Both the position numbers and the translations under genes were made by a program. From contig NZ_AJLE01000002.1 in assembly GCF_000296775.1 (NCBI RefSeq), positions 248,001 through 312,000 on the forward strand: a stretch of DNA of 64,000 bases. The letters are read 5' to 3'. Every line of letters starts with the position of its first letter. The stretch's first letter is position 1. This stretch comes from Sulfurovum sp. AR (GTDB lineage Bacteria > Campylobacterota > Campylobacteria > Campylobacterales > Sulfurovaceae). Positions 7,352-48,031 of this stretch are shown here, in pieces. The notes beneath the pieces were generated by a model, which worked only from the letters and a program-made list of their open reading frames with translations, had not been told where the DNA came from and searched no databases.

Positions 7352-8134
7352 TTAAGCCCTCATTTTTCGTTTGAAATTTATCCACTCTACAACGGAACGA
7401 ATAGACTCTTTATCATTGATATTGACTTCCAGGATATCCACATTGGGTTTAATGCGTCTGGCCTGGGCTTTTTCATTTTCAATATCATACTTGAAGTATG
7501 GCAGAAGGTCGGTTTTTGTGATGAGGACAAGATCGGCTTGACGGAACATGACAGGATATTTGGCTATCTTGTCTTCCCCTTCGGGTATAGAGACCAGTAC
7601 GATGTTCAAATGTGTACCCACATCATAAGAAGCAGGACAGACCAGGTTTCCTACATTTTCCACAAAACATACATCCAACCCATCCAACGGCATATCGTGT
7701 AAACCTTTATGCACCATAAAAGCATCCAAGTGGCAAGCAGAACCAGTCTGTATCTGCATGGCAGGAATGCCTTTTGCTTGAAGCCTCTCTGCATCTTTAC
7801 TGGTTTCTAAGTCACCCTCAACCACACCAAATTTAAAATCTGCCACATCTGCCATATGTTCCAACAGCGTGGTTTTCCCACTCCCAGGACTGCTCATAAG
7901 GTTGATACCCAATATACCTTTGTTGTTAAAATGTTGTCTGTTATGCTCTGCTTCATGGTCATTTTTATCTAAGATCTTTTGAATGACTGAGATGGTTTTG
8001 GCATCATTGAGTTGTGGATTGTGATGTAAATGTTCATGTGCTTTTTGATGCTGATGAGAATGAGCATGATCTTTACCTTCATGACTATGCTCCATCACAC
8101 TCTCTGTTATACTACACCCACAATCTGTACACAT
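7352..8134 (-). CDS. hypB: Hydrogenase nickel incorporation GTPase HypB
   Basis: A 260-residue GTPase that drives nickel insertion together with HypA. The N-terminus has MCTDCGCS, the high-affinity metal-site type CxxCGC, followed by a His-rich segment (about residues 16-41) that can store nickel. The G domain shows SSPGSGKTTLLEH (P-loop, about 82-94), EGDLETSKDAERL, and TKTDLLPY (NKxD-like). The gene lies nine bases downstream of the nickel permease gene and one base before hypC. Confidence 0.96.
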   Translation of the reverse strand: MCTDCGCSITESVMEHSHEGKDHAHSHQHQKAHEHLHHNPQLNDAKTISVIQKILDKNDHEAEHNRQHFNNKGILGINLMSSPGSGKTTLLEHMADVADFKFGVVEGDLETSKDAERLQAKGIPAMQIQTGSACHLDAFMVHKGLHDMPLDGLDVCFVENVGNLVCPASYDVGTHLNIVLVSIPEGEDKIAKYPVMFRQADLVLITKTDLLPYFKYDIENEKAQARRIKPNVDILEVNINDKESIRSVVEWINFKRKMRA

Positions 8135-40723: not shown

Positions 40724-42211
40724 ATGAAATTTACAGATTTTAATTTAAAAGAGACTATTCAGACTGCTATAGCAGAAGCTGGATTTACTGAACCGAGCCC
40801 GGTTCAGAAAGATGCGATTCCTTTAGTATTAGAAGGTCATGATATGATCGCGCAGGCACAGACAGGTACAGGTAAGACTGCTGCATTTGGTCTTCCTATC
40901 ATGAGCATGATGAAAGGTGACGGTTCTGTTGAGGGACTTGTGATCGTTCCTACTCGTGAGCTTGCAATGCAGGTGAGTGATGAACTCTACCGTTTCGGTC
41001 AAATGAGCGGACTTAAAACAGCTACTGTCTATGGTGGTACAGCGTATGGTAAACAGATAGACCGTATAAAACAAGCTTCTATCGTTGTGGCGACTCCGGG
41101 TAGACTTCAAGATCTGCTTGAGAGCGGAAAGATCAAAATGAATCCTCAGTTCGTTGTGCTTGATGAAGCTGATGAAATGCTTGATATGGGATTCTTGGAT
41201 GAGATCAAGAATATCTTTACTTTCCTTCCTCAAGAACGTCAAACACTTATGTTCTCAGCAACGATGCCAAACAGTATCAGAAAACTTGCAGAGCAGATCC
41301 TTAAAAACCCTAAAACCGTTTCTATTACGAAGTCAGAGAGTACAAACACTTCTATCACGCAACTTTACTATGTTGTACAGGAGAAAGAGAGAGATGATGC
41401 GCTTGTTAGACTTATCGACTATAAGAATCCAAACAAATGTATTATCTTCTGTCGTATGAAAAAAGAGGTTGATAGACTGGTTGCACACTTGACAGCACAA
41501 GGATTTAAAGTTTCTGGTCTTCACGGAGATATGGAACAAAAGCAAAGAGAAGTAACGATCCGTGCTTTCAAACAAGGTGGTATCGATATTTTTGTTGCAA
41601 CAGATGTCGCTGCACGTGGTCTTGATGTCAATGATGTCACACATGTATTTAACTACCACATCCCTTTTGACTCTGAATCTTATGTTCACCGTATCGGTCG
41701 TACAGGGCGTGGTGGTAAAACAGGTGAAGCGATCACTTTAGTAAGCCCTAATGAGCTTAGAACCATTAAGCGTATAGAAAAAGATGTAGGTACGAAGATG
41801 ACTACACAAGTGATCCCTACACGTATGGAAGTACAAAACAACCGTGCAGATGCGCTTATCGCTAAGATCTCTGAAACTAAAGTGACTGAAAGTGCGATCA
41901 ATCTTGTTAAAACATTACAGCATGATCTAGATATCGTCACGATCGCACATCTTCTTGCTTCTTTAGTTCAGGAAGAAACTTTTGTAAAAGGTAAAGACCA
42001 CATTGGTCTTGGTCTTGAAGAAGTTGAACTTCTTATCGAAAAAGCACTGCAGAACAGAGGCGGAGGCGGTGGTGGCCGTAACCGTGGTGGTTCTCGTGGT
42101 AACAGAAGTGGTGGCCGAAGTAGACATGGCCGTAACGGACGTTCAAGCGGTAGCCGTAGCGGTGGCAGACGTGACAGCCGTAACGGCGGTCAAGGCAGCA
42201 ACAGGGGGTAA
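40724..42211 (+). CDS. DEAD-box RNA helicase with RGG-type tail
   Basis: A 495-residue ATP-dependent RNA helicase. Motifs in order are the Q motif (GFTEPSPVQKDAIP), AQTGTGKT, PTRELA, TPGR, DEAD (155-158), SAT, ARGLDV and HRIGRTGRGG. After about residue 440 the tail is almost only Gly, Arg, Ser and Asn (RGGSRGNRSGGRS), an RGG-like RNA-binding segment. Family members unwind structured RNA in ribosome assembly and mRNA decay, especially in the cold. The long leader suggests post-transcriptional control. It is a single-gene unit. Confidence 0.95.
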   Translation: MKFTDFNLKETIQTAIAEAGFTEPSPVQKDAIPLVLEGHDMIAQAQTGTGKTAAFGLPIMSMMKGDGSVEGLVIVPTRELAMQVSDELYRFGQMSGLKTATVYGGTAYGKQIDRIKQASIVVATPGRLQDLLESGKIKMNPQFVVLDEADEMLDMGFLDEIKNIFTFLPQERQTLMFSATMPNSIRKLAEQILKNPKTVSITKSESTNTSITQLYYVVQEKERDDALVRLIDYKNPNKCIIFCRMKKEVDRLVAHLTAQGFKVSGLHGDMEQKQREVTIRAFKQGGIDIFVATDVAARGLDVNDVTHVFNYHIPFDSESYVHRIGRTGRGGKTGEAITLVSPNELRTIKRIEKDVGTKMTTQVIPTRMEVQNNRADALIAKISETKVTESAINLVKTLQHDLDIVTIAHLLASLVQEETFVKGKDHIGLGLEEVELLIEKALQNRGGGGGGRNRGGSRGNRSGGRSRHGRNGRSSGSRSGGRRDSRNGGQGSNRG

Positions 42212-44515: not shown

Positions 44516-44632
44516 AGGCGACTCTAAATCGACAGGTTTGATATATTACTCACACTTTATATAGATACTGTGAGGAGAGTTTATTTAAGATACAATTGAT
44601 ACGTTCAAAAAACGCAAAAACAAGGATTTAAA

Positions 44633-45045
44633 ATGAAAGTTACAAAAATATCTTTAACTTGATTGGCTATGCTCTCATCTTCTGTTTTCACTGCGATTGC
44701 AGATACTCCAGAGCCGTCTAACCATATAAATTATCCTGTAGGATGGCAGAAGTGGTCTCCGATAGCTGTTTATCACCGTACAGATAATAACACAAGTAGA
44801 AAATATTAGGTAATTCAATTGCCGTCGAAGCTGCGCGTAAAGGAAATGTCAATCCTTGGCCGGATGGGGCTATATTGGGGAAGATCGTTTGGAAAGATGA
44901 TCAACTACAAGATTGGAAGGCAGCAACGGCTCCTGGAGAATTTGTTCATGCCGAGTTTATGTTTAGAGATTCAAAGAAATGATGAAGATGTTTTGAAGTT
45001 CCAGGCTATCCTACAGATAATGATCTTGTAGAACAGATCTCTTAA
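44633..45045 (+). pseudogene. Broken cytochrome P460 copy joined to the tail of a second gene
   Basis: The first part is a degraded copy of the P460 gene at 46337: it reads MKVTKISLT then a TGA where the intact gene has a Ser codon (TCA), continues ADTPEPSN, NYPVGWQKW and YHRTDNNTSR, then has a one-base deletion and goes on as GNSIAVEAAR and NPWPDGAILGKIVWKD in another frame. It stops at FMFRDSKK, before the heme-binding CxxCH. The sequence then passes directly into the last codons of a copy of the small gene at 43524. The 609-bp interval 44516-45124 holds no intact gene. Confidence 0.85.
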
Positions 45046-45682: not shown

Positions 45683-46078
45683 TCATAACTCAAAAGAGAG
45701 ATTTGCAAATACCCCTTCGACACTTTGTGCCGTTTTATAGCGGGTCTGGAGCATTCTTACCTTTTTGGTCTTCATGTCACAAATAGCTATACGGAAGCTC
45801 ATACCCATTTGCGGTTCAACGATACAGATAATTTTTCCATCATGTTCACGTGTGGCATGGATAATACCCTGAAGTTTGGGAAAGAAGTATTTTGGATAGC
45901 TTAACGGTGTAATCTCTACGATCTTTACCTTATCGCCATCTTTTAGGGTATCAACTATAAGCTGGGCATCTTCCACGCTCTCAAACTGCACACACCAATC
46001 ATCAAAAACCTTATTGAAATGCTTTAGATCTTCATCTAAGAAACCTCCGGCAAGTGATTGTAAAGCAAAAATACCCAT
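45683..46078 (-). CDS. Conserved hypothetical protein
   Basis: A 131-residue soluble protein with mostly beta structure and no export signal (MGIFALQSLAGGFLDEDLKHF start; DGDKVKIVEITPLSYPKYFFPKLQG in the middle; VRMLQTRYKTAQSVEGVFANLSFEL end). I do not recognise a family. A ribosome site AGGAT precedes the ATG. It stands convergent to guaD and divergent from the P460 gene. Confidence 0.65.
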   Translation of the reverse strand: MGIFALQSLAGGFLDEDLKHFNKVFDDWCVQFESVEDAQLIVDTLKDGDKVKIVEITPLSYPKYFFPKLQGIIHATREHDGKIICIVEPQMGMSFRIAICDMKTKKVRMLQTRYKTAQSVEGVFANLSFEL

Positions 46079-46261: not shown

Positions 46262-46336
46262 ATTCATGCTCTAATAAAAGTAGTATGTTTCTCTAAATAA
46301 AGTGAGTCACCATTTACTTGTAAAAAAGGATATAAA

Positions 46337-46840
46337 ATGAAACTTATTAAATTATTTGTCACTTCATTGGCGATGATCTTTTCTTCCACTATCAATACAT
46401 TTGCGGATACACCAGAGCCATCAAACAATATTGACTATCCTGTCGGTTGGCAGATGTGGTCTGCGATAGCTGTTTCTCACCGTACTGATAACAACACAAG
46501 TCGAGTAATATTGGGTAATTCAATTGCAGTCGAAGCAGCACGCACAGGAAAAATTAATCCTTGGCCTGATGGGGCCATATTGGGTAAGATCGTTTGGAAG
46601 GATAAACAACTTAAAAATTGGAAGGCAGCAACTGGACCGGGAGAACTTGTCCATGCCGAATTTATGTTTAGAGACTCAAAGAAATATAGTAAGACATACG
46701 GATGGGGTTGGGCACGTTGGCTTGGTCTGTCACAAAAGCCATTTAATGATGGAGGAAAGTCCTGTATCTCATGTCATACACCAGTCAAAGATCGAGACTG
46801 GACATTTACAGATCCAGCTGCATTTCCAACTTTAAAATAG
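46337..46840 (+). CDS. Cytochrome P460 family protein
   Basis: A 167-residue exported protein with signal peptide (residues 1-23, ending TFA). The cytochrome P460 fold is indicated by YPVGWQMWSAIAVSHRTDNN, NPWPDGAILGKIVWKD, HAEFMFRDSKKYSKTYGWGWARW and the c-type heme site CISCH near residue 146. P460 cytochromes oxidise hydroxylamine or NO; others of the family have no tested substrate. A ribosome site AAGGAT precedes the ATG. A decayed paralogue lies 1.3 kb upstream. The stop is about 60 bases from that of the convergent TOPRIM gene. Confidence 0.85.
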   Translation: MKLIKLFVTSLAMIFSSTINTFADTPEPSNNIDYPVGWQMWSAIAVSHRTDNNTSRVILGNSIAVEAARTGKINPWPDGAILGKIVWKDKQLKNWKAATGPGELVHAEFMFRDSKKYSKTYGWGWARWLGLSQKPFNDGGKSCISCHTPVKDRDWTFTDPAAFPTLK

Positions 46841-46899: not shown

Positions 46900-47856
46900 T
46901 CACTTCTCTTTCGTCATATCCTTGACCCTATCTACATCGATCGGTGTGGACCATTTTGCTTCAAATACCGTTTCCATAGACTCTACCTCCTCTCTAATAT
47001 CCTCTACTCTCTTTCTTAACTGCTCATGCAATTGCTTATAGTGCTTGTCGGTAGACAACAGCTCTTCTTCTTTTTCTTTTTTCCATCGATATCGGCTCAA
47101 CGCTTCCACAACTTCCGGGGCGACGGATTTCAGAATGGCTGATTCGAGGAGTTCGGCTTTGTTCTCTACTACATTGAGCTCAACCCCAAGTGTCTGACCC
47201 TTTTCTATCCAAGATTGGTTGAGTTTGTTTTGTTTATTGGTGCTGAGGGTATAAGTGGGATAATGAGAGACGATATCTTCATATCCACTGCCAAAAAGCA
47301 CAGGGATGGCACTAAATTCGATATCTGGGTTAATGAGCCCTAAGTCATTCTTGACCTTCACCGCAAGTGAGTGAAAGATGGATTCACCGGATGGGTCGAA
47401 GTCGGTAATGGCTATAAGATAGGCTTTATTGTATTTGGCCGTACGGTTAAGATATTGGGCAATATTCACCGACTCAAAAGATGGGATCTGTCCGGTACTG
47501 CTATAGATACCACATTGCAGTGCTTCGGAGAGTATGTCTGTACTTCTCGTCGGCTTTTCTGTGAAAAGCACGATGGGGGTATTATAGGTGTGTTTGTCAT
47601 TACTGAGTCCCTTAGTGATAAGGTTGAGTCGACTGTAGATCGTCACATCACCATCCAAAAAGAGTTCATAGAGATATTCGCCTATGAGTCTGTTGACATA
47701 GATATCCCACTTGTCATCAGGCATTTTTTTGAGATGTTCGATGTCCCCTTTGAACTTATACCAGATATCTCTGATATTTTCCACGGTTTCACCTGTGGAA
47801 AGAAACTGATCGATATAGGTGGTAAGTTTTTTGCGGGTGCCTCTGTAGTGTTTCAT
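46900..47856 (-). CDS. Orphan TOPRIM-domain protein, Spo11/topoisomerase VI-A-like
   Basis: A 318-residue soluble protein. The centre has the features of a TOPRIM metal site: PIVLFTEKPT (acidic Glu, about residues 94-103), a GIYSSTGQIPS loop and LIAITDFDPSGESIF (DxD motif, about 146-160), most like that of topoisomerase VI subunit A. The N-terminal 90 residues are helical (WYKFKGDIEHLKKM), and the last 60 are a charged coiled coil (KHYKQLHEQLRKRVEDIREEVESME, about 262-286). No catalytic tyrosine domain was recognised. No partner gene such as a topoVI-B or ATPase is near. Role unknown; DNA or RNA binding is inferred. Confidence 0.6.
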   Translation of the reverse strand: MKHYRGTRKKLTTYIDQFLSTGETVENIRDIWYKFKGDIEHLKKMPDDKWDIYVNRLIGEYLYELFLDGDVTIYSRLNLITKGLSNDKHTYNTPIVLFTEKPTRSTDILSEALQCGIYSSTGQIPSFESVNIAQYLNRTAKYNKAYLIAITDFDPSGESIFHSLAVKVKNDLGLINPDIEFSAIPVLFGSGYEDIVSHYPTYTLSTNKQNKLNQSWIEKGQTLGVELNVVENKAELLESAILKSVAPEVVEALSRYRWKKEKEEELLSTDKHYKQLHEQLRKRVEDIREEVESMETVFEAKWSTPIDVDRVKDMTKEK

Positions 47857-48031
47857 AGCTTAGCCTTTACGCATACAAAGTTAGAAACATTATACCAGTT
47901 TTTAACTCTTGTCACTACTCGTAAATCCGGATCTTGAGCACAGAATTAAAATCATTTTGGAAAATTCATAAAAATAGAGAAAAACTTATTAAATGATAAT
48001 TTTTATTATTTACATGTAAGTATAACAACTA

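Follow-up and report, generated by a model that had tools for sequence, protein, structure and literature searches.

Type IIB breaks carry a short 5' overhang, and topoisomerase VI-A (topo VI-A) and Spo11 act together with B-type partners. In the M. mazei Top6A the active site comprises Y106 with R102 and the acids E202, D254, D256 and E342 (available text of PMC13040014). Topo Mini-A proteins, carried by archaeoviruses and phages, are presented as truncated homologues of Top6A, with that of Pseudomonas phage NP1 as an example (PMC7614492), and they are described in viruses, phages and mobile elements (PMC8185306, PMC7614492); according to the available text of PMC8185306, no archaeal Mini-A has been characterised. 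MksG and JetD are portrayed as TOPRIM proteins resembling topo VI-A whose DNA cleavage does without a tyrosine in the CAP-like domain, and glutamates are proposed as the nucleophiles of JetD (available text of PMC10123090).

We analysed a stretch of 64,000 nt (hereafter the window) from Sulfurovum sp. AR (NZ_AJLE01000002.1, assembly GCF_000296775.1, 2.13 Mb in 11 contigs), which carries the gene of a small TOPRIM-like protein, P0001. A literature search retrieved no paper describing the P0001 family, a mention in the founding Mini-A paper (Takahashi 2020) being possible. The gene and the parts of its product are as follows.

46900 to 47856, minus strand: gene of P0001, a Mini-A-like type IIB A-subunit homologue; intact open reading frame of 318 aa with an ATG start
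47889 to 47894, minus strand: TATAAT box upstream of the gene, a possible -10 element read from the sequence
47587 to 47856, minus strand: N-terminal helical region, residues 1-90, a putative shortened winged-helix (5Y-CAP-like) domain assigned by position and motif
47758 to 47772, minus strand: R29-D-I-W-Y33, putative catalytic tyrosine motif with invariant R29 and Y33 (residues 27-33 read NIRDIWY)
47152 to 47580, minus strand: putative TOPRIM domain, residues 93-235, assigned from the match between the family and Topo Mini-A profiles over residues 93-251
47554 to 47559, minus strand: E100-K101, with the first TOPRIM glutamate (TEK is 99-101); E100 invariant in 11/11
47386 to 47406, minus strand: TDFDPSG (151-157), DxD metal-binding motif (TDFDPSGE is 151-158); D152, D154, P155 and G157 invariant in 11/11
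47179 to 47181, minus strand: E226, probable fourth acidic residue, invariant in 11/11
46942 to 47121, minus strand: C-terminal charged, coiled-coil-like tail, residues 246-305, with heptad-like periodicity

The open reading frame is a real gene under purifying selection, with dN/dS values of 0.044-0.131 in 35 of the 36 pairs formed by nine orthologs, the 36th pair being nearly identical. The TATAAT box was found upstream of the gene in 9/9 orthologs, a few bases from the ATG in one of them (G353). A 188-aa open frame runs antisense to the gene (47371-47937) and is probably a by-product of codon composition.

Six positions of P0001 (R29, Y33, E100, D152, D154 and E226) are invariant in 11/11 aligned relatives, down to 32% identity. 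They can be laid onto the active site of M. mazei Top6A, with R29/Y33 corresponding to R102/Y106, E100 to E202 and D152/D154 to D254/D256, and with equal spacings in both proteins from R to Y (4) and from E to D (52); in the 2q2e chain, R102, E202, D254 and E342 of Top6A sit exactly on the expected motifs. The counterparts in the NP1 Mini-A are R43/Y47 and E127. Across a set of 15 diverse Mini-A proteins the R, the Y, the E and the first D are invariant (15/15), the second D is present in 14/15 and the fourth acid in 13/15. Using an approximate topo VI-A query sequence, we retrieved from the PDB topo VI-A and yeast Spo11 chains whose tyrosine stretches read TIRDLYY (2zbk), TLREAYY (1d3y), TLRELYY (2q2e) and TVRDIFY (yeast Spo11, 8urq). 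RDIWY of P0001 is thus similar to RDIFY of yeast Spo11 and to TIRDLYY/TLRELYY of Top6A, and it is likewise followed by the E, the DxDP and a fourth acid. In sequence register, R-x-x-x-Y of P0001 occupies the place of the catalytic tyrosine. E235 is also invariant and had first been picked by motif as the fourth acid; the alignment with Mini-A favours E226. When P0001 was shuffled, the full ordered motif set occurred in 0/200000 shuffles and the tyrosine pentapeptide pattern by itself in 1746/200000, a weak test because the pattern was written after the protein had been seen and fits only 6/15 Mini-A rows.

In its general plan P0001 resembles Topo Mini-A, which is also of about 300 aa, places R-x-x-x-Y before the TOPRIM region and keeps the order E, DxDPSG, E. 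The two differ in the stretch from the tyrosine to the first glutamate (67 residues in P0001 and 65 in its distant relative G129, versus 78-99 in Mini-A), in the start of the DxD motif (TD in P0001, invariant GD in the Mini-A set) and in the length after the fourth acid (92 residues, versus 49-67 in Mini-A, measured on the 12 rows whose ends are annotated). Compared with M. mazei Top6A, P0001 has 32 rather than 105 residues before the tyrosine and 67 rather than 96 between tyrosine and glutamate. Since the Tyr-to-Glu stretch is shorter than the 78-99 residues of Mini-A, part of the winged helix would be missing or replaced in P0001. At the other end, 45% of the residues of the tail (246-305) are charged, and its hydrophobic positions recur with a period of 3.5 residues (p = 0.0015, 2000 shuffles; p = 0.11 for its first part, 246-268, by itself). 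An earlier note on this DNA, made from its letters, had reported the TEK and TDFDPSGE acidic motifs and a long coiled-coil C-terminus, both of which we find again, and had stated that there was no tyrosine domain; on this last point it was probably wrong, considering that the invariant R29-D-I-W-Y33 fits the tyrosine motif of topo VI-A and Spo11 in sequence, in spacing and in its position before the TOPRIM region.

To place the family by profile comparison, we located the NP1 protein as a 300-aa product (41160-42062 of KX129925) that matches phrog_6247, 'DNA topoisomerase', with an E-value of 1.2e-137, and which we infer to be the NP1 Mini-A meant in PMC7614492. Its relatives were found in 77 phage and 46 plasmid records, of which 35 of the 46 plasmid records are from Streptomyces; most of the plasmid relatives listed are annotated 'hypothetical protein'. 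They include an archaeal plasmid protein annotated 'Topo Mini-A', which is part of the alignment of 15 diverse Mini-A proteins from phages and plasmids (A6). The alignment of the P0001 family (A3, 11 rows) matched A6 over residues 93-251 with a probability of 94.9%, an E-value of 4.3e-8 and a score of 60.7, setting EK on EK, TDFDPSG on GDHDPSG and GVEL on WELDAL. In controls, 150 column shuffles reached at most 27.8, below half of that score, and the reversed alignment reached 20.0; the topo VI-A alignment scored 53.0 against A6. We also compared 289 single sequences with A6. The P0001-family sequences took ranks 1-14 with scores of 42.5-53.2 (these 14 represent 11 distinct genes, some being fragments or duplicates), three topo VI-A proteins scored 33.6-34.1, and the other 272 proteins, many of them orthologs of each other, scored at most 25.0; counted among these 272 is L027, at rank 215, which a chance BLAST match had caused to be labelled as family. 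By these scores and controls, residues 93-251 of P0001 are homologous to the TOPRIM region of Mini-A, with the acidic set complete, and the link to topo VI-A and Spo11 proposed in the earlier note gains statistical support by way of Topo Mini-A.

The strength of the match depends on the Mini-A set and on the region compared. Against 76 NP1-like Mini-A proteins of narrow diversity (NP1 plus 80 loci, after dropping 5 rows that contained a stop or an X or lacked a usable match) the P0001 family gave a weak match (P = 0.018), the same 76 proteins gave P = 0.03 against topo VI-A, and significance was reached only with the broader 15-row set. The N-terminal (tyrosine) region by itself matched Mini-A weakly (P = 0.01), and against topo VI-A it gave P = 0.057 with the tyrosine motif unaligned; low-stringency, end-forced profile alignments placed RDIWY on the tyrosine motifs of both Mini-A and topo VI-A. 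A search of 298 whole genomes of the order with the A6 profile yielded three hits, including P0001 (E-value 1.6e-4, the sole hit within its own genome) and a weak hit to an ORF of G099 at a similar E-value (9.6e-4), and missed the related copies in G129 and G140. The third hit was a genuine Topo Mini-A (250 bits), lying on a contig of 3.4 kb (L189/L194) in G100, a genome from a different family of the order. A solved Mini-A structure was not found, the topo VI-A chain 1d3y (E-value 0.036) being what the A6 profile matched best in the PDB.

Compared directly with topo VI-A, the P0001 family gave P = 0.0044 and a score of 28.9, and hmmsearch gave no match in this comparison; an unrelated ORF among the 289 sequences scored almost equally (28.5), and we do not take the direct match as proof of homology. 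The TOP6A-Spo11 Toprim family (PF21180) did not match P0001, and 0/248 genomes of the order had a match over the cut-off; the hits L035/L036 to this family we take, by eye, to be response-regulator-like. P0001 alone gave nothing credible against Pfam, PHROGs, NCBIfam, PADLOC and PDB sequences, nor did alignment A1 against PDB sequences. When 11 family members were searched against Pfam, the sole family below an E-value of 0.001 was PF09265, a dehydrogenase domain rather than a TOPRIM, matched by one member (1.7e-4) and taken as chance. P0001 matches neither Pfam Toprim (PF01751), which recognises three other proteins of its genome, nor DUF2399 (PF09664), to which the NP1 Mini-A has a weak match below the cut-off. 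In a tree of 28 rows, for which the program warned that long branches meet, the P0001 family formed its own clade (100/100), and a branch with support 89/96 had the 16 Mini-A rows on one side and the P0001 family together with topo VI-A on the other. The family, as placed by this tree, is a separate lineage and is not nested in the Mini-A clade. Topo VI-B (PF09239) was found in 0/9 genomes searched, eight of which are carriers, and a single gyrase/topo IV A-type match was seen in each of 9 genomes, eight of them carriers. P0001 thus shares with Mini-A the lack of a B subunit in these genomes, in which it differs from topoisomerase VI, and the earlier note's description of an orphan without partner holds as far as the B subunit is concerned.

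Taken together, we consider P0001 rather likely to be a divergent, stand-alone type IIB topoisomerase A subunit of its own lineage, closest in profile to Mini-A, which would work as a B-less homodimeric DNA gate cleaving through a phosphotyrosine. The main rival takes P0001 for a TOPRIM endonuclease that depends on metal and has no need of Y33 as nucleophile, a mode of action of the kind proposed for JetD and MksG (of the Wadjet and MksBEFG plasmid-defence systems), which like P0001 are bacterial and have a topo VI-A-like TOPRIM, in our case judged by sequence. The fact that those proteins cut DNA without a CAP-like-domain tyrosine (PMC10123090), together with the complete TOPRIM acids and the shortened winged-helix region of P0001, speaks for such an enzyme; yet P0001 has a tyrosine in the CAP position, which MksG lacks, and R29 and Y33 are invariant in 11/11 and lie in topo VI-A register. 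A PADLOC scan argues in the same direction. It gave no match of P0001 to JetD or another nuclease, including the defence-system nucleases for which the earlier note had proposed to search, and no defence system was recognised among the 10 neighbour proteins scanned. JetD and MksG act together with the SMC-like JetABC and MksBEF, and the neighbours of P0001 that were scanned against Pfam and PADLOC included no recognisable JetABC component. On balance we find an endonuclease of this kind unlikely. The single match of P0001 in PADLOC was a weak one to ZorA (E-value 0.0056, residues 207-306, mostly in the tail), taken as low complexity, and one of the 10 neighbours gave a match, namely of a deaminase gene to a dCTPase model (E-value 8.6e-11). 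The reading of the region as a defence island, and the defence function that had been suggested for the protein, found no support in these scans.

A second alternative is that catalysis has been lost while the fold was kept, P0001 then being a structural or DNA-binding protein, for example a regulator or an organiser of the chromosome acting through its coiled coil. This would suit the patchy distribution of the family, which is carried by 12/78 genomes of the genus: nine full-length close orthologs (that of the window included), a partial copy at a contig end (G312), an intact, full-length distant relative with 32% identity (G129, L033) and a distant copy in G140 (L034, 7995-8910) that is broken into two ORFs in different frames and may also be quoted in favour of lost catalysis. 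Against it, the six catalytic positions stay invariant down to 32% identity, and in 27 of the 30 ortholog pairs for which all segments were computable dN/dS is lower for the TOPRIM part than for the tail, which would not be required of a pseudo-enzyme; in 21 of these 30 pairs neither of the other two segments is as constrained as the TOPRIM, many of the underlying dS values being near or beyond saturation. We therefore hold a loss of catalysis to be quite improbable. That P0001 is no topo VI-A relative at all and resembles it by convergence is very improbable, as the match to Mini-A withstood shuffling, reversal and comparison with real proteins and the six catalytic residues agree in order, spacing and identity, against which stand a direct topo VI-A similarity that is not significant and AlphaFold2 models of low confidence (pLDDT 46.1 and 40.7). 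Those models were built from alignments of only 5 and 4 sequences, with relatives 85-90% identical to P0001; their order of strands and helices is compatible with a TOPRIM, the tail is helical in the first of them, and a fold search with this very-low-confidence model gave no match at an E-value of 0.001 or below.

Beyond the genus, the family is rare. In the order, 4/298 genomes matched, namely that of the window, G129, G140 and G167; the last belongs to another family, is the only carrier found outside the genus and has a copy 77% identical over 237 residues, cut by a contig end and with different neighbours. In a sample of the phylum, 6/397 genomes matched, comprising that of the window, G129, G140 and three weak hits, one of which (L025) spans residues 194-310. 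The other two (L026 and L027) were judged by eye to be unrelated and were rejected as family members. The domains assigned by eye in this analysis include an L,D-transpeptidase-like one and a response regulator. By tblastn there were no matches in 50,697 phage and 72,556 plasmid records, and pattern-based scans of viral contigs gave no match to P0001. Sequence records and same-genus genomes describing the same contigs were counted once. Unlike Mini-A, known from phages, viruses and plasmids, P0001 is chromosomal, is kept within a clade and has its own lineage in the tree.

The chromosomal setting is partly conserved. Near the P0001 gene, 9/9 close carriers with flanks (eight full-length copies and G312) have one and the same di-haem cytochrome c peroxidase gene, upstream and divergently oriented; it adjoins the P0001 gene in some of them and is as far as about 6 kb away in others. 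The remaining neighbours vary and include cytochrome P460, an S24 peptidase, a threonine exporter, a MarR regulator, a DUF488 protein and a patatin-like protein, among others; G129 and G140 have other neighbours, both copies adjoining similar proteins, that of G129 with a THUMP domain. In G277, the non-carrier closest by its peroxidase gene (80%), the peroxidase and a DEAD-box helicase gene lie about 0.2 kb apart, and the P0001 interval is therefore an accessory hotspot. No integrase was found among 17 neighbour proteins scanned against Pfam. In the window the cytochrome P460 gene is duplicated, with an intact copy at 46337-46840 and a truncated one at 44618-44980, and the repeats at 44618-44980 and 46322-46685 share 79-85% DNA identity. 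The earlier note's accessory region with pseudogenes is borne out by the close spacing of the two genes in G277 and by the truncated P460 duplicate. The survey of neighbours in other genomes that it proposed showed a shared peroxidase gene in 9/9 flanked close carriers and otherwise varying genes, with no defence system recognised among the 10 neighbours scanned.

One further neighbour recurs near P0001.

45683 to 46078: P0002, a 131-aa protein without a Pfam match

P0002 lies within about 2.2 kb downstream of P0001, on the same strand, in six of the eight carriers flanked on that side. It is present in 39/78 genomes of the genus, comprising 9/12 carriers versus 30/66 non-carriers (Fisher p = 0.11), and P0002 is at most a candidate partner of P0001. 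In G326 (L029) the P0001 gene has an intact P0002 downstream of it (9033) and, immediately upstream, a decayed 5' fragment of P0002 (about 7800-7920, 85% over 123 nt); fragment and intact copy are a trace of a local duplication around the P0001 gene.

In the mechanism that we propose for P0001 as a type IIB A subunit, a homodimer would form, with Mg2+ at the TOPRIM of each subunit holding a DNA phosphate for attack by Y33 of its partner. This transesterification would give a double-strand break with 5'-phosphotyrosyl ends, and the coiled-coil tail might hold the dimer together or recruit a partner. As there is no ATPase, the usual ATP-driven strand passage would be lacking, and P0001 would be a simple gate or a break maker: a gate that cleaves and possibly rejoins DNA, or a protein that makes breaks as Spo11 does. 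The stand-alone DNA-cleaving enzyme that had been suggested from the letters of this DNA is possible. We regard a role in DNA maintenance as more likely than one in defence, because P0001 is kept and strongly conserved in one clade and no defence neighbour was found. A bolder proposal, which we consider unlikely, is that B-less type IIB DNA-cleaving enzymes have a third lineage in this family, domesticated on the chromosome of one bacterial clade. Its members would make regulated, tyrosine-linked double-strand breaks or serve as a DNA gate independent of ATP, either in the manner of a bacterial Spo11 or as an extra decatenase where the cell has a single gyrase/topo IV A-type gene, with the tail replacing the ATPase subunit as the partner-binding or dimerising element.

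P0001 and its orthologs may add a branch to a family that has hardly been studied and whose other known members come mainly from phages and plasmids, and proteins like it can escape the family libraries searched here. A compact chromosomal protein that is kept in a clade with a full catalytic set, beside a single gyrase/topo IV A-type gene, would allow the cellular role of a B-less type IIB A protein to be addressed directly, and it would also bear on whether Spo11-like cleavage exists beyond meiosis and defence.
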